This document shows, piece after piece, positions 24,777 through 59,040 of a stretch of 64,000 bases of DNA. Under the pieces are notes generated by a model. The model searched no databases. It saw only the letters and a list, made by a program, of their open reading frames with translations, and was not told where the DNA came from. The position numbers were made by a program, and so were the translations under genes. Source of the stretch: Janibacter cremeus (GTDB taxonomy: Bacteria > Actinomycetota > Actinomycetes > Actinomycetales > Dermatophilaceae); NCBI RefSeq assembly GCF_029395675.1, contig NZ_CP115184.1, positions 1 to 64,000 of the forward strand, given 5' to 3'. How positions within the stretch are numbered: the first letter of the stretch is position 1; each line of letters starts with the position of its first letter.

Positions 24777-24824
24777 GGGTCGATGTATTCGTGCGTGGTG
24801 GGATGCGCGGGGATACATCGACCC
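24777..24824. repeat. Hairpin repeat, left flank of the first AbiEi/DUF559-like gene
   Basis: Perfect 12-bp arms GGGTCGATGTAT (24777-24788) and ATACATCGACCC (24813-24824); the stem extends inward with G-U pairs. The region is divergent (Nramp start on one side, next gene start on the other), where a terminator is not expected. The same outer arms recur at 25914-25925 and 27295-27306 on the far side of the gene. Confidence 0.8.
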
Positions 24825-24924: not shown

Positions 24925-25878
24925 ATGCCACCTCGCGAGACCGCCATCGAGCGTCACCGCCGCGTGCTCGCTGCGTCCGAGGAGACCGGCTTCGTGCTGA
25001 GTCGGCGACGTCTGCGTGAGCTCGGGGTCACGCGTCACCAGGCCGACGCCCAGGCCGCAGCGGGGCGGTGGGTCAGGCTGGGGAACCAGACATTCGGCAT
25101 GCGCGACGCGCCGTTGGACGATGACGCTCGGTGCTGGCGTGCGGTGTGGGAGACGGGCGAGCGGATCGCCCTCGTCGACGGGGCGTCGGCGCTCCTGGCC
25201 GCGGGGCTGAAGGGATGGACCGAGGACGTCGTGCACGTGTCGGCCATCCACAACCACGTGGTCGCCCCGATCGACGGGGTGAAGATCCACAAGGTGATCC
25301 GTCGTGTCGAGGACGAAGCGGTCCGAGTCGGCATACCGAGGACGACACCTGCCGTCGCGGCGATCCGAGCCGCACACTGGGCCGTCAGTGATCGACAGGC
25401 GGCGACGATCCTCGCCATGCCGGTGCAGCAACGCCTCGTGACCGGGGAGCGTCTCGTGGCCGCGCTCGAGCTGGTGCGGGGGCGGACACGACGGGCCCTG
25501 ATCCGTCAGCTCGTGATGGACATCGTCGACGGGGCGCAGTCGCTGGGCGAGATCGACTTCGCCGCGGCGTGCCGCAAGCGGGGGCTGCCCGTCCCGAGCC
25601 GGCAGGTCATGCGAAGGGGGCCGCGCGGACGGGTCTACCTCGATGTCTACTTCGAGGAGTACGGATTCGTCGTCGAGATCGACGGGGCGGGTCACCTGTG
25701 GGGGTTGGCCCAGGTCGACGACAACCTGCGTGAGAACCAGGTCGTCATCGACGGTGACAGGGTGCTACGGATCAATGTCGTCGGGCTCCGCCTCAACGAG
25801 GAGACCGTCATGGACCAGGTGGCCGCCGCCCTTCGCTCCGATTGGGCCCAGGACAACCTGGCTCGCCGGCGCCGCTGA
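24925..25878 (+). CDS. AbiEi-like N-terminal / DUF559-Vsr-like endonuclease-domain protein
   Basis: 317 residues. An N-terminal winged-helix-like region (SRRRLRELGVTRHQADAQAA, then GRWVRLGNQTFGM) resembles the AbiEi antitoxin DNA-binding domain. The C-terminal 85 residues (YLDVYFEEYGFVVEIDGAGH, then HLWG and RENQVVIDGDRVLRINV) resemble DUF559/Vsr PD-(D/E)xK nuclease-like domains, with candidate acidic residues at about 239 and 250-252. No AbiEii toxin is adjacent, so it is a solitary gene. ATG 24925 gives the family-like start. It is flanked on both sides by copies of the same hairpin. Actual nuclease activity is untested. Confidence 0.7.
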   Translation: MPPRETAIERHRRVLAASEETGFVLSRRRLRELGVTRHQADAQAAAGRWVRLGNQTFGMRDAPLDDDARCWRAVWETGERIALVDGASALLAAGLKGWTEDVVHVSAIHNHVVAPIDGVKIHKVIRRVEDEAVRVGIPRTTPAVAAIRAAHWAVSDRQAATILAMPVQQRLVTGERLVAALELVRGRTRRALIRQLVMDIVDGAQSLGEIDFAAACRKRGLPVPSRQVMRRGPRGRVYLDVYFEEYGFVVEIDGAGHLWGLAQVDDNLRENQVVIDGDRVLRINVVGLRLNEETVMDQVAAALRSDWAQDNLARRRR

Positions 25879-25944
25879 GCTGGGGGACCGGCGCGGAGAG
25901 CCGGCACGTCGCCCGGTCGATGTATTGGTGCGCCTCCCGGGACG

Positions 25945-27277
25945 TGTCCTGTGAAGGGACATGTCGGACAGTCGTGAAGGGACATGTCTGACAGTCAGGG
26001 GCGTGCTTCGACTCGATAGTACGTGCGGCCGGTTTTGGGCGTGGTGATCTTGTCCGGGTCGAGTTGGATGTGTCCCAGGATGCGTTCTTCGTGGAAGAGG
26101 ACGGCGTGGTCCTGGTCGATGAGGTAGTGCAGGGTCGCGCCGGCCCAGGCGACGCCGAGGCTGACCCGGGCTCCGGGCAGGTCGAAGTACCCGGCCGGGG
26201 GCAGAGTGACCTCACGCACGAACTGGCGTTCCTTGAGCTGCTCAGGGTCTGGAAGGGCCTTGTCGGTGGCTGCGTAGCGCCGCGCGGGCGTGCTTCCGGC
26301 GATGCCCTGGTGCGGGCGTTCGGTGTTGAAGATCAGGTCGTAGGCATCGAGCAGGCGTTGCAGCTCGGGTAGGTCCGTGGCGCGCTCACGCGCTCTGAGC
26401 CACTGCTCCAGCGTCTGCCACTCGCGTTCCTTCTTGCCGTTGGTCTGCGGGTGCTTGGGGCTGGAGTTGATCATCCCGACCCCGATGCGGTGCAGGCGAG
26501 CCTCCAGGATGGAGTAGCCCCCGCCCTTGATCAGCCGGGCGGTGAAGGCCGTGCTGTTGTCGCACTGGATGAACGCCGGCTTTGCGTGGCGGTCCATAGC
26601 GGCGACCATGCATTTCCAGGTGTCCTCGCCCGTTTCGGCGCTGGCGGCGCGTGAGGCCATCAGCATGCGGGAGTGGTCGTCCTGGAAGCGCAGCACGACG
26701 CCCTTGCCCTCGGTGAGCTTGACCTCGTGCCCGTCCAGCTGCCACACCCCGTTGGGTTTCATCGCCTCGAAGCGGCGGTAGCTGGACTTGGGCCGCTTGG
26801 ACGGTGTCGGCTCGGTGCGCCCGTGGTCGGTCAGGATCTTGTGGCAGGTGCGCGCCGAGGGGACCTCCACGCCCGCCAGGGTGAGCCAATCGTGCACCGA
26901 CATGGCCCCGCCGTCCCAGCCCTCTGCAACCAGCTCGTCGTGCTTGTCGAGCACCGCCGCGACCGTGTCAGCGTCCGTGGCCCTGGGCGAGTTGTTCGGC
27001 CGCCTCGAGCGCGGGATCAAACCTTGAACGCCCTCTTCGCGCATCCGGCGCCGATACCGGTAGTACGTATCCCGCGAGATGCCCTGCTGCTTGCACAGCT
27101 CGCTCACCGAGGTCCCCGAGGCATCCTCCAAGACAGCGTGAGCACCGACCGCCAACCGAACTTCCACCGAGACCGCCTGCTGACTCATGCAGCCCATCTT
27201 CCGGGCCGCTACCGAGCCCCCGGTTGTCAGCGATGTCTCTTCACATACCTGTCAGGCATGTCCCTTCAAATCACAAG
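25945..27277 (-). mobile_element. IS481-family insertion sequence inside a hairpin loop
   Basis: About 1.33 kb with one DDE transposase. Both ends carry two tandem sub-repeats built on TGAAGGGACATG: 25953-25964 and 25975-25986 on the left, complementary copies near 27227-27270 on the right. Exact borders and target duplication are unclear because the flanking bases GGGACG and CGTCCC are part of the split hairpin. Confidence 0.8.
25995..27188 (-). CDS. IS481-family transposase (DDE)
   Basis: A 397-residue transposase. N-terminal helix-turn-helix (VSELCKQQGISRDTYYRYRR) and a second HTH region (MSVHDWLTLAGVEVPSARTC) precede an rve core with the catalytic acids in WQLDGHEVKL, FIQCDNSTAF and PQTNGKKEREWQ. 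The NTERPHQGI motif is standard for the family. ATG 27188 is chosen; an in-frame ATG at 27197 is possible. No damage is visible. Confidence 0.9.
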   Translation of the reverse strand: MSQQAVSVEVRLAVGAHAVLEDASGTSVSELCKQQGISRDTYYRYRRRMREEGVQGLIPRSRRPNNSPRATDADTVAAVLDKHDELVAEGWDGGAMSVHDWLTLAGVEVPSARTCHKILTDHGRTEPTPSKRPKSSYRRFEAMKPNGVWQLDGHEVKLTEGKGVVLRFQDDHSRMLMASRAASAETGEDTWKCMVAAMDRHAKPAFIQCDNSTAFTARLIKGGGYSILEARLHRIGVGMINSSPKHPQTNGKKEREWQTLEQWLRARERATDLPELQRLLDAYDLIFNTERPHQGIAGSTPARRYAATDKALPDPEQLKERQFVREVTLPPAGYFDLPGARVSLGVAWAGATLHYLIDQDHAVLFHEERILGHIQLDPDKITTPKTGRTYYRVEARP

Positions 27278-27316
27278 CGTCCCAGCGCGCCGGGATACAT
27301 CGACCCGACGGGACCC

Positions 27317-29611: not shown

Positions 29612-29697
29612 ACGAACTACTGCAGGCAGCAGTACGTTTCGTGTGCAGTAGTTCGAGCTACTGCCGACGATACGAGGTGCTGCCTGCAGTAGTTCGT
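29612..29697. repeat. Large nested hairpin between NUDIX and ThiF-like genes
   Basis: Perfect 20-bp arms at 29612-29631 (ACGAACTACTGCAGGCAGCA) and 29678-29697. The 46-base loop holds a smaller inverted repeat, CAGTAG-TTCGAG-CTACTG, near 29646-29663, and the ACGAACTACTGCA theme is repeated. It lies between two genes of the same direction. Confidence 0.8.
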
Positions 29698-53759: not shown

Positions 53760-55055
53760 ATGCCTCTGGACTTTCCCTTCGAGGACCACACCCTCTCCAA
53801 CGGGTTGCGCGTCATCGTGCAGCCCGACGCCACGACGCCCACCGTCACCCTCAACATGTGGGTGGGCGTCGGCTCGCGACACGAGGAGGCGGGGGCGACC
53901 GGCTTCGCCCACCTCTTCGAGCACCTGATGTTCCAGGGCAGCGAGCACGTCGCCAACGGTGAGCACTTCCAGGCGCTCATGGGCGTCGGTGGCCGGCTCA
54001 ACGCGACGACGTGGTTCGACCGCACGACGTACTTCGAGACGATCCCCTCCGGCGCGCTCGAGCTCGCGCTGTGGCTGGAGGCCGACCGGCACGCCAACCT
54101 CCTGGCGGCCGTGACGCAGGACAACCTCGACAACCAGCGCGACGTCGTCAAGGAGGAGAAGCGCCAGCGCTACGACAACCAGCCGTACGGCCAGGCGATG
54201 ACGCGGATCTACGCGACCGTCTTCCCCGAGGGACACCCGTACCACCACCCGACGATCGGGTCGATGGAGGACCTCGACGCGGCGACGGTGGACGACGTGC
54301 ACGACTTCTTCCGCCGGCACTACGCCCCGGACAACACGGTCCTGACGATCGTCGGTGACGTCACCGCGGAGCGGGGGCTGGAGCTCGTCGAGCGCTACTT
54401 CGGTCACCTCGACCACCACGCCGAGCCGCGAAGGGGGCCGGTCGCCCCCCTTCGCCCGCTGCCGGAGCCGGCGCGCGAGGAGGTCGTCGACGAGGTGCCC
54501 AACGACCGCATCCACCTCGCCTTCCGCCTCCCTGCCGAAGGGGGCAGGACCGGTGACGAGTTCCTCGCCTCCTCGATGGCCCTCGACTGCCTCGGCGGGT
54601 TGAGCTTCTCGCCGCTGGAGCAGCGGCTCGTGCGCGACGAGCAGCGCGCCAACGCGATCGACGTCGGGGCGATGGGCTTCGTCGACGGGGTCTCCCTCGG
54701 CCTGGTGATCGTCGACGTCGCGGACGGGGTCGACGCGGACGAGCTGGAGGAGCAGGTCTGCGCCGAGCTGACCGCCTTCGCCGACGCGGGCCCGACGCCC
54801 GAGCAGATGGAGGCGGTGCGGGCCCAGGCGGAGCGCGCGTGGCTGTCGTCGCTGGCCGCCAAGGACGAGCGCGCCGACCTGATCAGCCACTACACGTGCC
54901 TGCACGACGACCCCGGCTACATCAACACCTTCCTCGACCGGCTGGCGGCGATCACCCCCGAGGACGTGCGCGCCGCTGCCGACACCTGGCTGCGCCCGCA
55001 GCACCGCGCCGCCGTCGTCTACCGAGCCGCCGAGCAGCAGGAGGAGGCAGCATGA
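53760..55055 (+). CDS. M16 family zinc metallopeptidase, catalytic subunit
   Basis: 431 residues. The inverted zinc motif HXXEH is present in GFAHLFEHLMFQGSEH, with a distal Glu in the DVVKEEKRQRYDNQPYG region about 75 residues later. The fold consists of two homologous M16 halves. It would cleave small peptides as a heterodimer with the next gene's product, whose start overlaps it (ATGA). Processing of a mobile secreted peptide is possible. Confidence 0.92.
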   Translation: MPLDFPFEDHTLSNGLRVIVQPDATTPTVTLNMWVGVGSRHEEAGATGFAHLFEHLMFQGSEHVANGEHFQALMGVGGRLNATTWFDRTTYFETIPSGALELALWLEADRHANLLAAVTQDNLDNQRDVVKEEKRQRYDNQPYGQAMTRIYATVFPEGHPYHHPTIGSMEDLDAATVDDVHDFFRRHYAPDNTVLTIVGDVTAERGLELVERYFGHLDHHAEPRRGPVAPLRPLPEPAREEVVDEVPNDRIHLAFRLPAEGGRTGDEFLASSMALDCLGGLSFSPLEQRLVRDEQRANAIDVGAMGFVDGVSLGLVIVDVADGVDADELEEQVCAELTAFADAGPTPEQMEAVRAQAERAWLSSLAAKDERADLISHYTCLHDDPGYINTFLDRLAAITPEDVRAAADTWLRPQHRAAVVYRAAEQQEEAA

Positions 55056-56407
55056 GCACGCCCACGGTCCCGCGTCCGCAGGTCGCCGCGCCGGGGGAGT
55101 GGTCCTTCCCCCAGCCGCGTGAGCTCACCCTGCCCAACGGCATCGGTGCCCTCGTGCACGACGTGCCGGGGCAGTACGTCATCTCGGTGCGCCTGACCGT
55201 GCCGGTCGCGCTGCGCCACGAGCCGGAGGCCACGGAGGGCGTCGCCTGGATCATGGCGCGGCTGCTCGACGAGGGCACGCGCACGCACAGCCAGCGCGAG
55301 CTGTCGGAGCTGCTCGAGCGGCGGGGCATCGCGATCGGTGCCGGCATGAGCGAGGCTGCGCTCGGCGTCGACCTCGACGTCCCGCAGCGCTTCCTCGGGG
55401 AGGCGCTGGAGCTGCTCACCGAGTGCATCTCCGAGCCGGTCTTCGACGAGTCGGAGGTCTCGCGCATCAAGCGCACCCGCCTGGCCGAGATCGAGCAGGA
55501 GCGCGCCTCGGCCGGCCGTCGCGCCTTCAAGGAGTGGGCGAGGACCTACTACGACCCCGCCATCCGCGCCTCGCGGCCCGGTGGGGGTACCGCGGAGACG
55601 GTCGCCGCGGTGACCCGCCAGGACGTCGTCGACTTCCACGCCGAGCACGTCCACCCCGAGGGGGCGACGGTCGTCGTGGCCGGCGACCTCACCGGGGTCG
55701 ACGTCGAGGGGCTGCTGGGCTCGACCCTCGGCGCCTGGACCACCTCCGGTCGTGTGCGGTCGGTCGACCGTGAGCCGGCTCCGCGTGCCGCCGATGCCGC
55801 CCGCGTCGTCCTCGTCGACCGGCCCGGCTCGGTGCAGTCGGAGATCCTCATCGGCGCCCCGGGCCCGGACCGGCGGGTCGAGTCCGGGTGGGCCCCCTTC
55901 CCCGTGCTGGCCTACGTCATGGGCGGCGCCCCGAACGCCCGCATCGACCAGGTGCTGCGCGAGGAGAAGGGCTACACCTACGGCATCCGCTCCGGGTTCC
56001 GCCCCCGCCAGGTGGGCTCTGCCTTCACCGTCGCCGGCTCCGTGCGCGCCGACTCGACCGTGGACTCGCTGCGCCTGCTCAAGGGCATCCTCACCGACGC
56101 CCCCGGTTTCACCGAGGAGGAGACCCGCGCGGGCGTGGACTTCATGAGCCTCACCGCACCGGGTCGCTACGACACCGCGGACGCGATCGCCGACGAGACC
56201 GCCGGCCTCGCGGGCGACGAACTGCCGCTGACCTTCACCAGCGACACCATCGCGGCGATGCGCCGGCTGACGGCCGACGACCTCAGCCGTGCCTGGCGCG
56301 AGCAGGTCACCCACGAGTGGACGGTCGTCGTCGTGGGTGACGCCTCGCTGTACCGGGACCAGGTCGAGGACCTCGGCCTCGGCCCGGTCACCGTCGTCCC
56401 GAACTGA
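55052..56407 (+). CDS. M16 family protein, non-catalytic partner subunit
   Basis: 451 residues. It has the M16 fold but the metal motif is lost: the aligned segment reads GVAWIMARLLDEGTRTHS in place of HLLEH. The C-terminal half keeps the R/Y-type signature LREEKGYTYGIRSGFRPRQV. Such catalytic/non-catalytic pairs form heterodimers in bacteria and mitochondria (MPP). Translationally coupled to the catalytic subunit; a GGAGGAGG box precedes ATG 55052. Confidence 0.9.
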   Translation: MSTPTVPRPQVAAPGEWSFPQPRELTLPNGIGALVHDVPGQYVISVRLTVPVALRHEPEATEGVAWIMARLLDEGTRTHSQRELSELLERRGIAIGAGMSEAALGVDLDVPQRFLGEALELLTECISEPVFDESEVSRIKRTRLAEIEQERASAGRRAFKEWARTYYDPAIRASRPGGGTAETVAAVTRQDVVDFHAEHVHPEGATVVVAGDLTGVDVEGLLGSTLGAWTTSGRVRSVDREPAPRAADAARVVLVDRPGSVQSEILIGAPGPDRRVESGWAPFPVLAYVMGGAPNARIDQVLREEKGYTYGIRSGFRPRQVGSAFTVAGSVRADSTVDSLRLLKGILTDAPGFTEEETRAGVDFMSLTAPGRYDTADAIADETAGLAGDELPLTFTSDTIAAMRRLTADDLSRAWREQVTHEWTVVVVGDASLYRDQVEDLGLGPVTVVPN

Positions 56408-56457: not shown

Positions 56458-56544
56458 GGTTGTGGGTTGAACCGGTAGTCCCGGAAGCCGGCAGCGCACT
56501 GGGGGCATCCCCGGCAGCCGTGGCGACCGGTTCAACACACAACC
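56458..56544. repeat. Palindromic repeat, left flank of the second AbiEi/DUF559-like gene
   Basis: 87 bp. Arms 56458-56476 (GGTTGTGGGTTGAACCGGT) and 56526-56544 pair with one mismatch; the interior contains CTGGGGGCATCCCCGG, which can fold too. About 90% identical to the repeat at 57443-57533 on the other side of the gene. It may act as terminator of the M16 operon. Confidence 0.85.
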
Positions 56545-56642
56545 ACGCCGGCTGCAACCCACAAGTACGTCGGCGTGAGCCGGTGGTCCACAGGCAGGCA
56601 GCGACGGCGCATCCGTAGGCACGAGGCCGCTGGGCTGGTCTC

Positions 56643-57440
56643 GTGATCTACACGAGGAGCGACTGGCAGGGGACCGCACGTGAGCTGTCGGCAGCGGTGG
56701 CGAAGGGGGAGGTCGAGCGCGCGGGCAGGTACTACGTCACGCCCGACACGTCTCCCGAGGTCCGAGATGCCTTGGCCGAGGGGTTGCGACCGACCTGCGT
56801 CATGGCGGCCCGGGAGCACGGACTGTGGGTTCCGCCGGCCTCGGGCCTGCACGTCTACGGTCGCCGGCGGCCGGTCGGGCCGGGATGGGTCGGACACGGG
56901 TGGCACGGGAGCTGGCCCGAGGAGGCGGCCGTCGCGTCACCACGTCTGCTGCTCGAGCACGCCGTCGCCTGCCTCGCCCCACTCGACGTCGGGATCCTGG
57001 CCGACTCCGCGCTCCACCAGGGCCTCATCAGCGCTGAGGACGTGGCTGCCTTGGCGTGTTCGGCCCCGCGGGGCGTTGCCCGTGTGCTGGCCCGGGTCTC
57101 GGGCCTGGCCGAGTCCGGCACGGAGAGCAAGGTCAGGCTCTTCCTGCAGCTGCACAACGTGACGGTGACGCCGCAGGTCGAGATCCCCGGTCTCGGGAGG
57201 GTCGACAACCTGGCCGGACGGCGCTGGATCCTCGAGAGTGACAGCCGGGCGCACCACACGGGGGAGGACACCTACGCCAAGGACCGCACTCGGGACCTGC
57301 ACGCGCTCGAACTCGGGTACTTCACCACGCGGCTGACCCACTGGATGACCTTCGGTGGGTGGGGGAGGGCGTCGCAGACGTTGCTCAGGGTGATCCGGTC
57401 GGGTCGGCACCTGGAGGACCCGGCCAGATACGCGCTGTAG
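56643..57440 (+). CDS. AbiEi-like / DUF559-Vsr-like domain protein
   Basis: 265 residues. The N-terminal segment (TARELSAAVAKGEVERAGRY, then YVTPDTSPEVRDAL) resembles the AbiEi winged-helix region. The C-terminal part (EIPGLGRVDNLAGRRWILES, DSRAHHTGEDTYAKDRTRDL) looks like a DUF559/Vsr PD-(D/E)xK-type fold with candidate acids at about 188, 198 and 200. No toxin partner is adjacent. The start is GTG 56643 with no good ribosome-binding box. The layout matches the gene at 24925: hairpin about 100 bases upstream and a second one right after the stop. Confidence 0.65.
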   Translation: MIYTRSDWQGTARELSAAVAKGEVERAGRYYVTPDTSPEVRDALAEGLRPTCVMAAREHGLWVPPASGLHVYGRRRPVGPGWVGHGWHGSWPEEAAVASPRLLLEHAVACLAPLDVGILADSALHQGLISAEDVAALACSAPRGVARVLARVSGLAESGTESKVRLFLQLHNVTVTPQVEIPGLGRVDNLAGRRWILESDSRAHHTGEDTYAKDRTRDLHALELGYFTTRLTHWMTFGGWGRASQTLLRVIRSGRHLEDPARYAL

Positions 57441-57442
57441 CC

Positions 57443-57533
57443 GGTTGATTGTGTGTTGAACCGGTAGGCCCGGGAGCCGGCACCGCCCTGGGGGCATCCC
57501 CGGCCGCCGTGGCTACCGGTTCAACACACAACC
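57443..57533. repeat. Palindromic repeat, right flank of the second AbiEi/DUF559-like gene
   Basis: Arms TGTGTGTTGAACCGGTAG (57450-57467) and exact complement (57513-57530), starting three bases after the gene's stop codon. The interior contains CTGGGGGCATCCCCGG as in the left copy. It lies between convergent genes and can serve as terminator. Confidence 0.85.
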
Positions 57534-57592: not shown

Positions 57593-58942
57593 TTACTTCT
57601 TCCCGAACTCCCCGGAGGACTTCACCCGCGGCTCGAGGACGAACAGGCCCTCCTCGACGCCGGTGACGACGACCTTCCCGGACTCGAAGTAGGGGTAGTT
57701 GCCCCAGGTGCCAGCGAACTTCGTCTCGTCGTCGTTGGGGTAGACGTCGAGGAAGCCACGCTCGGTGAGGCGGCCCTGCTCGGCCTTCCAGGTGTCCATG
57801 ACCCGCAGACCGGAGGTGTAGTTGCTCTGGTAGGCGAGACCGTCCTTGATGAAGATGTTGTGGTCGATCGACGGGTTCCCGCTGCCGTCGGCGCCACGCA
57901 GGACCGGGTTGTCCAGGTCCTGCAGGTCCCACACGTAGGTCGTCGTGCTGTCGACCGTGCCGGTGAGCTCGTCGAGCTCGTCACCCAGCAGGAAGTAGGC
58001 CTGGTCCTCGGTGAACCAGCCCTGGTGGGTGTAGGCGGCCGTCGTGTACGAGACGCGCGCGAGCATGTCGATCGCGGACTTGTCCGTGACGTCGAGGATC
58101 GTCACCGTGTCCTCGTTGGAGGCCACGCAGATCTCGCGACCGGCGTGCTCGGTGTCCGGGCCCGCGTACTCCACGCACTGGATGTCGTGGGTGTAGCCGT
58201 CCTCGCCGTAGCATCCGGCGAGCTCCGGCTGGCCCGGGCTGGAGAGGTCGTACATGATCGGCCCGCCGTCCACGTCGGCGCAGCCGGGGGCGGTGACGCC
58301 GCGCGTGGAGCCGACGACGTAGAGCGACGCACTCTCCTCGTTGACGTAGAGGTTGTGCGACTGCCCGACTCCTGTGATCCGGGTGTCTTCGCTCCAGTCC
58401 TGCTCGGACGTGACGCCGCGCAGCCTCGTGAGGTCGAAGACCTGCACGCCGTGCCCGGCGGCCTCGGAGCCGATGTAGGCGTGGTTGCCGTAGGTCTTGA
58501 TGTCACCCCAGATGTTGCCGGAGCCCTCGGCGGCGGCCGGCAGCACGCCGAGGTGGACGGGGTTGGCCGCGTCGGTGATGTCGACGAAGGCGGTGCCCTC
58601 GTAGAGCTTGGCCAGGGCGTACTCCCTGCCGGTCTGCGGGTCGGTCCAGCCCCAGACGTCATTGGCCCAGATGCTGTCGCCGAGGTCCTTCAGCGGGGTG
58701 AAGGAGGCGACATCGACCTTGTGGCAGGGGAAGAGGTCCCCGGCCATGCCGTCCTCGCAGCGCAGATCGCTCATCGGCTCCTGTGGCACCCCACCGGGGC
58801 TGATGTCCTCCTGGACCAGATCGAAGCCGGCCGCCTTGCCCTCGCCCTCCTTGTGGGTGGGATGCGCTGCGGCGGTGGTGGCGCTGATCAACAAGCCAAG
58901 ACTCGCGACGGCGACGGTGGCGACGCGGGTTGGTCGTCTCAT
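57593..58942 (-). CDS. Secreted LVIVD/choice-of-anchor-B-type beta-propeller protein
   Basis: 449 residues with a signal peptide (VATVAVASLGLLISATTAAA, cleaved after about residue 27). The mature part has repeated beta-propeller units of the LVIVD type: TAFVDITDAANPVHLGVLPA, HGVQVFDLTRLRG, VTILDVTDKSAIDML and LRVMDTWKAEQGRL, with AYIGSEAAGHG and YTHDIQCVEYAGPD as family hallmarks. Probably displayed or released at the cell surface. ATG 58942 follows GAGAGGAA. Function unknown. Confidence 0.85.
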   Translation of the reverse strand: MRRPTRVATVAVASLGLLISATTAAAHPTHKEGEGKAAGFDLVQEDISPGGVPQEPMSDLRCEDGMAGDLFPCHKVDVASFTPLKDLGDSIWANDVWGWTDPQTGREYALAKLYEGTAFVDITDAANPVHLGVLPAAAEGSGNIWGDIKTYGNHAYIGSEAAGHGVQVFDLTRLRGVTSEQDWSEDTRITGVGQSHNLYVNEESASLYVVGSTRGVTAPGCADVDGGPIMYDLSSPGQPELAGCYGEDGYTHDIQCVEYAGPDTEHAGREICVASNEDTVTILDVTDKSAIDMLARVSYTTAAYTHQGWFTEDQAYFLLGDELDELTGTVDSTTTYVWDLQDLDNPVLRGADGSGNPSIDHNIFIKDGLAYQSNYTSGLRVMDTWKAEQGRLTERGFLDVYPNDDETKFAGTWGNYPYFESGKVVVTGVEEGLFVLEPRVKSSGEFGKK

Positions 58943-59040
58943 GGTGCGTTCCTCTCGGTAGGGGTGCACCGCACGTTATGGCCTGGATCACACTCCCGCA
59001 TGTTGAGACGAGCTCCAGCACCGCGCCCTGCGCCGGGCGG

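Follow-up and report, generated by a model that had tools for sequence, protein, structure and literature searches.

Why should a single gene of Janibacter cremeus lie between two matched copies of a long palindrome, and does the palindrome belong to the gene? The window analysed (the whole stretch of DNA, 64,000 nucleotides) comprises positions 1 to 64,000 of NZ_CP115184.1 (GCF_029395675.1); the same genome, a single contig of 3.50 Mb, is referred to as G000. A first-pass annotation of the window had described an AbiEi/DUF559-like gene with its own pair of palindromes, and had attributed the arrangement to local duplication of a pre-existing terminator. The description is retained here and the explanation is not. 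The arrangement looks like a gene/DNA-repeat partnership of a new kind, in which genes of a nuclease-like family each have their own palindrome, which is also scattered in the genome.

The locus and its palindrome pair

The features of the locus and its direct neighbours are as follows.
54839..56407, + strand: M16 peptidase (Pfam), upstream neighbour, pointing toward the element
56458..56544, no strand: family-1 palindrome, upstream copy, ~87 bp (self and pair sequence comparison, ssDNA folding)
56643..57440, + strand: 265-aa gene with GTG start; AbiEi-like N-terminal part and Vsr/EDxHD-type nuclease domain, as predicted (ORF and predicted structure)
57447..57533, no strand: family-1 palindrome, downstream copy, ~87 bp, span given in the register of the first copy (sequence comparison, ssDNA folding)
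57593..58969, - strand: ORF of 458 aa, downstream neighbour, convergent, without Pfam match at E 1e-3 (ORF list, Pfam)

The matched ~87-bp palindrome pair around the 265-aa gene was confirmed as real. The two copies (56460-56544 and 57449-57533) were 92% identical across 85 nt. Each is an imperfect palindrome with a 19-nt centre, copy 1 having arms of 34 nt with 82% complementarity and copy 2 arms of 32 nt with 88% complementarity, and folding as ssDNA gave z values of -5.7 and -8.4, respectively. Between the first copy and the GTG at 56643 there are 98 nt, and the second copy follows the stop at 57440 at a distance of 6-8 nt; the interval between them is filled by one ORF only, that of the 265-aa gene, while other ORFs there do not fill it. 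When upstream and downstream sequences were compared for the 42 non-overlapping ORFs of the window (target included), the 265-aa gene had the highest score, 71, followed by an IS481-like transposase ORF at 40; the remaining 40 ORFs scored 22 or less. The score of 71 was for the direct orientation, against 46 for the inverted one; the inverted score was higher at other loci, and near-palindromes match either way. No empty site with one palindrome copy was found between the M16 and LVIVD-type genes, and G002, which is without an orthologue, has a different gene after M16.

The same layout with different hairpins, which the first-pass annotation had also reported for another DUF559 locus of the window, was borne out there too.
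24777..24824, no strand: upstream palindrome of the first DUF559 locus, of a family differing from family 1 (sequence comparison)
24925..25878, + strand: first-locus gene, 317 aa, DUF559/AbiEi-like (PF04480 match)
25913..25942, no strand: first part of the palindrome downstream of the first-locus gene, interrupted by an insertion sequence (sequence comparison; Pfam for the insertion sequence)

The interruption lies at about 25943, and the insertion sequence (~25943-27280) is IS481-like, its transposase ORF being recognised by Pfam. A stretch resembling the other half of the downstream palindrome (ATACATCGAACC) was found after another copy of the insertion sequence, at ~117.96 kb of the contig. 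Because the insertion sequence cuts the downstream copy, the pair score of the first-locus gene was just 20, against 34 for its orthologue in the sister species G013. The G000 contig also contains a tandem duplication of 90,678 bp with its junction at this IS481-like element; the duplication is either real or a feature of the assembly; compared stretches of the duplicates were identical or 1 base apart. A near-identical copy at 3.461-3.462 Mb is part of this duplication and is therefore not independent evidence.

Matched pairs in the genus and the order

A protein search with the 265-aa gene gave matches in 15 of 16 genus genomes. There were 11 orthologues, with 53-98% identity, whose flanks were matched; yet the flanking sequences differ between clades, so that orthologues of different clades carry different palindrome pairs. 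We compared the sequence upstream of each DUF559-family place in the 16 genomes with the sequence downstream, using as threshold a score of 25.3, the 99th percentile of 2472 cross-pairings between different gene clusters (null maximum 31). The comparison excluded one place with an unreliable frame (L069), the orthologues that are split (in G005 and G006), and the copies within the tandem duplication of G000. The threshold was exceeded at 55 of 71 places, made up of 46/58 in the first set and 9/13 in a further set; eight of these nine had a self-complementary score of at least 15 in both copies. Two of the 16 failures (L351 and L354) were DUF559 domains within open frames of more than 1800 aa. 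The matched-pair layout is thus general for DUF559-family genes of the genus, and different genes have different palindromes.

Beyond the genus, a DUF559 match at E 1e-5 was present in 164 of 297 genomes sampled across the order. Two sets of order-level loci were compared in the same way; these were top-ranked or chosen matches and hence a non-random sample, and some of the matches between flanks are not palindromes. In the first set (30 loci chosen, one too short), 16 of 29 loci scored at least 26 and 17 of 29 at least 24, the cross-null having a 99th percentile of 25.9 and a tail up to 132; 11 of the 16 were clearly self-complementary in both copies. In the second set, 14 of 20 loci lay above both 25.9 and the threshold of their own null (380 cross-pairings, 99th percentile 30.5, maximum 83), and eight of the 14 were self-complementary. 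In the first order-level set (29 loci), the start of the gene served as the reference for the upstream window; in the genus tests and the second set, the stop did.

Scattered copies and their turnover

The palindrome around the 265-aa gene is not confined to it. Ten of the 16 Janibacter genomes also have family 1 as single copies, 33 places in all. The element measures 87-88 bp, and the outer 22 pairs were 85% Watson-Crick across 51 copies, compared with 26-33% when the pairing was slid by 1-3 columns; at 4 of these 22 pairs, two Watson-Crick types were seen. A family-1-flanked orthologue was found in nine genomes, all of which also had singles, and no match to family 1 was obtained at E 1e-4 in the six genomes without a family-1 flank (G001-G005 and G010). 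The nine genomes are not independent, because the species are related. G014, an assembly that is 79% complete, had one family-1 single and no orthologue match. By a rough ORF method, the gene context of the 33 singles was co-directional in 14, convergent in 12 and divergent in two, with one lying in an ORF and four without call. The first-pass annotation had named as refutation of its proposal a widespread REP-like element with no link to these genes; copies at unrelated places were indeed found, but the link to the genes is strong, so that this description applies only in part.

Other gene-flanking palindromes are dispersed as well. Seven palindromes taken from the flanks of DUF559 genes were searched in eight genomes at E 1e-3, with places counted by hand from the match list, and dispersal in the own genome was seen for seven of these eight further genome/palindrome pairs. 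The number of extra places beyond the gene pair was 14 in G239, 8 in G044, 7 and a partial one in G009, 5 in G000, 4 in G013, approximately 3 in G199, 1 and some partial ones in G286, and none in G243. Different palindrome families can sit at one intergenic spot in different species: at one such site, family 1 was present in G008 (L159), another family in G000 (2219810) and G013, and neither in G005. A further observation concerns the family-2 site at L030 4738-4809, where the sister species (L164) has, over a similar length, another sequence that looks like a hairpin.

Family 2 allowed the presence and absence of single copies to be compared directly between sister species, and one of its copies lies in the window.
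29612..29697, no strand: family-2 single copy; family with 14 unique sites in G000, also found around a DUF559 gene in G005

Besides the DUF559 gene of G005, family 2 surrounds its relative in G001 at 72-74% identity; searches at E 1e-8 gave no match to it in G007, G009, G011, G012 or G015. There were 14 unique sites in G000 and two in the sister G013, although the flanking DNA was mostly 96-98% identical. When the 14 sites of G000 were looked up in G013, two were filled, four were without the element (2206473, 3377356, 1794771 and 1688990), one (2049032) had ~2.8 kb of other sequence, two (2991697 and 1692428) had a remnant of 14-16 nt, and five had unrelated sequence of similar length. The cleanest empty site is 2206473, at which G013 reads straight through. 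In G001, G005, G007 and G012 this site contains other sequence, of 21-51 nt; in G009 and G011 the interval is longer or has been rearranged, and in G015 its left side is unreadable. Family 2 is absent in the other relatives that are readable there. The comparison supports a gain of family 2 at 2206473 in the G000 lineage. At 3377356, a related-looking palindrome was present in G005 and terminator-like hairpins in other species.

Loss is also indicated, because remnants remain at 2991697 and 1692428 and at the L157 site in G011. In addition, the copies within G000 had a median pairwise identity of 84% (best pair 93%), whereas the two sites common to G000 and G013 were 94 and 99% identical between the species. 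Many G000 copies may therefore be older than the separation of the two species, with later loss in G013. As judged from sequence divergence among the copies, either gain or loss may account for the difference between the species, and the safe reading is turnover of family 2 by gain and loss rather than a dated expansion. Four G000 copies (2991697, 2256192, 1692428 and 2775737) were without 13-14 nt at one end, measuring 72-73 nt instead of 86, which marks a recurrent truncation point. By the rough ORF method, four of the family-2 sites were co-directional, four convergent, four 'inside' ORFs (possibly method errors in GC-rich DNA) and two without call.

We then asked how far the gene and its palindrome change together. 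The two family-1 copies at one locus had an identity of 0.79-0.95, compared with a mean of 0.71-0.79 to copies around orthologues of other species, and the within-locus value exceeded this mean in nine of nine genomes. It exceeded the best match in another species in only four of the nine (G006, G008, G009 and G011); in the other five species, a gene-flanking copy was nearer another species' copy than its own partner, which is expected under plain vertical descent. Co-change was clearest in G011, with 0.95 within the locus and at most 0.77 to any other species, and there the singles retain the older sequence though the gene pair has changed. Singles resembled the gene-flanking copies of the genome in which they lie slightly more than expected (mean rank 4.0 of 9, against 5.0; 32 singles), with a permutation p of 0.0025 that ignores shared ancestry, several singles being at sites common to sister species.

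The encoded protein and the explanations weighed

The AlphaFold model of the 265-aa protein (pLDDT 94.6) predicts two fused parts, one AbiEi-like and the other a nuclease domain of the Vsr/EDxHD type. The top Foldseek match of the N-terminal part was AbiEi 6y8q with a probability of 1.00, but with an E value of 3e-3, TM scores of 0.36/0.46 and an rmsd of 6.4; the catalytic domain has, in the predicted structure, the Vsr/EDxHD-type fold. In an alignment of 67 rows, E161, D188, E198, D200 and H205 were invariant and D214 nearly so, and we take these acidic and histidine residues to form the EDxHD catalytic motif. The dN/dS ratio was 0.20-0.32, with the nuclease-fold residues invariant. In Pfam, the 265-aa protein itself had no match to DUF559 (PF04480) or MTES_1575 (PF18741) at E 1, two of its orthologues matched MTES_1575 below the cut-off, and the DUF559 cut-off was passed by four of five paralogues, with the first-locus gene just under it. 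The match of the 265-aa protein to AbiEi_4 was below the cut-off only, while paralogues matched AbiEi models down to 1e-9. The earlier naming of the gene as AbiEi/DUF559-like is upheld.

Two orthologues deserve separate mention. That of the sister G013 (L045) is without one codon exactly at the conserved E198, and its nuclease may be impaired for this reason; copies of families 1 and 2 are few in G013. The orthologue of G005 is split into two parts (L177 and L178) that lie ~26 kb apart, and transposase-end-like DNA was seen by eye beside one part.

The closest likeness is to REPs and RAYTs, for which one gene flanked by a palindrome pair and joint change of enzyme and palindrome are reported in PMC2817692 and PMC3733652. 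Shared features are a gene between two palindrome copies, a palindrome scattered intergenically, co-change of gene and palindrome, and several families per genome. The RAYT enzyme, however, is a Y1/HUH transposase, whereas the Janibacter enzyme is a predicted Vsr/DUF559-type nuclease; no Pfam match to the Y1/HUH transposase (PF01797) was found in the 265-aa protein, and no Y1 transposase or RAYT was detected in any of the 16 genus genomes, the control search being positive in E. coli. REP palindromes are 20-40 bp long and usually present in more than 100 copies, compared with ~50-110 bp (86-88 bp for families 1 and 2) and 1 to 14 scattered copies per genome in Janibacter, as counted for families 1 and 2 in the genus-wide search. 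The foot of the REP hairpin is GTAG, unlike the palindromes described here, which have no consistent GTAG there; their outer ends vary by family (for example GGTTGTG, ACGAACT, TCAACGTG and GCCGAGAG), with GTAG/CTAC further inside in families 1 and 2. The REPs on either side of a RAYT gene are in inverted orientation; the near-palindromes of Janibacter match in both orientations. Given the differences in enzyme, in length and number of the palindromes and in the tag, the Janibacter system would be REP/RAYT-like in its working and not a member of that group.

Other known systems share single parts. The type IV toxin-antitoxin protein AbiEi shares the N-terminal fold, and known AbiEi proteins bind promoter inverted repeats; the Janibacter gene differs in its added nuclease domain and in having palindromes on both sides and scattered, and there is no AbiEii (DUF1814) toxin gene inside it, nor is either direct neighbour recognisable as one (Pfam: M16 and no match, respectively). 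EDxHD homing endonucleases (I-Bth0305I) and Vsr share the fold of the C-terminal domain and the conserved acidic and histidine residues, but the Janibacter gene is free-standing between palindromes. MITEs are likewise short inverted-repeat elements that do not code for protein, occur scattered and have empty sites; in contrast to them, the Janibacter palindromes are without target-site duplication (by eye), and no transposase with matching ends was found in searches for the Y1 family. In searches of open-licence papers in PMC, no link was found between DUF559, Vsr-like or AbiEi genes and palindromes beside them or dispersed in the genome.

On balance, we lean towards the gene and its two palindromes being one unit of a REP/RAYT-like partnership built on an unrelated enzyme. 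The gene, resident and inherited vertically, would encode an AbiEi-like DNA-binding part and a Vsr-type nuclease; the former would bind the palindrome flanking its own gene, and the latter would nick or cut it, probably in its extruded hairpin form. Repair or copying after the cut would spread, homogenise or delete the palindrome, the outcome being family-specific single copies scattered in intergenic DNA, and gene lineages would switch the palindrome pair along with the protein. We infer that recognition, cutting and spread of the palindrome are driven by the 265-aa protein rather than by another enzyme. The strongest fact against a tight link between gene and palindrome is that G000 is richest in family 2, while the closest of its collected DUF559 ORFs is just 37% identical to the family-2-flanked genes. 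The abundance of family 2 in G000 without a close cognate gene would require gene loss, cross-action by a paralogue or another driver.

The main rival is regulation in the style of AbiEi, because AbiEi proteins bind inverted repeats in promoters; autoregulation of AbiEi antitoxins via inverted repeats in their own promoter is described in PMC7319586. The upstream palindrome, ~100 bp before the start, would be an operator that silences the gene, the downstream copy would insulate, and the scattered copies would form a regulon or act as decoys, all without mobilisation. The AbiEi-like N-terminal part (6y8q) and the AbiEi matches of the paralogues are consistent with such a role. However, the pair test demands a downstream match, and most genus places passed it (55/71); singles in divergent, and hence promoter, intergenic regions are rare (2/33, by the rough method), sites vary between close species, and palindromes of ~50-110 bp with long arms fit an operator poorly. 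We therefore consider pure regulation unlikely.

Slightly less likely again is movement of REP- or MITE-like repeats by another enzyme, or by replication slippage or recombination, with DUF559 genes merely favoured neighbours, for example where terminator-like hairpins shield a poorly tolerated gene. The 14 family-2 copies in G000 without an identified cognate gene, the terminator-like hairpins at 3377356 in other species, and the single site with different families in different species (G000:2219810 and L159 of G008) all point in this direction. Left unexplained would be the locus-specific pairs and the dispersal of exactly those palindromes that flank genes, and no transposase was found within the Y1 family searched.

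Vsr/EDxHD nuclease and AbiEi-like domains occur in conflict systems. The predicted combination of both could thus belong to a defence or addiction module, whose nuclease attacks hairpin-forming DNA, such as that of invaders, while the flanking copies control or guard it. This is improbable: the 265-aa protein had no match in PADLOC, the unit between the palindromes is a single gene, and the scattered copies would be left unexplained. Most improbable is the first-pass proposal that a pre-existing terminator was duplicated locally and independently at each locus, which suits palindromes that have their own sequence per locus and fold as hairpins, but not repeats that match before and after the gene, in the same layout each time, at 55 of 71 places, family 1 at 33 other places in 10 genomes, family 2 at 14 sites, and the dispersal of other gene palindromes.

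To return to the partnership of nuclease gene and palindrome, we regard it as an even call whether a whole class of palindromes scattered in bacterial genomes has AbiEi-fused Vsr-type nucleases as partners and owes its spread to them, which would be a REP system of an origin independent of HUH transposases, with many family-specific pairs in one Actinomycetota order. If so, REP-like repeat systems would have had two or more separate origins, their enzymes being unrelated, and the palindromic repeats of genomes that have no RAYT could be accounted for. DUF559-type genes are common and little explained; if many of them are paired with cognate palindromes, a testable substrate and a role would follow.

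A minor observation concerns the consensus of family 1, in which GCCGGC is prominent on either side of the centre. Since family 2 is without GCCGGC, it is probably a coincidence that this resembles YGCCGGCR, the methylation of which is linked to a Caulobacter Vsr-like/DUF559 protein in a passage of PMC12907096.
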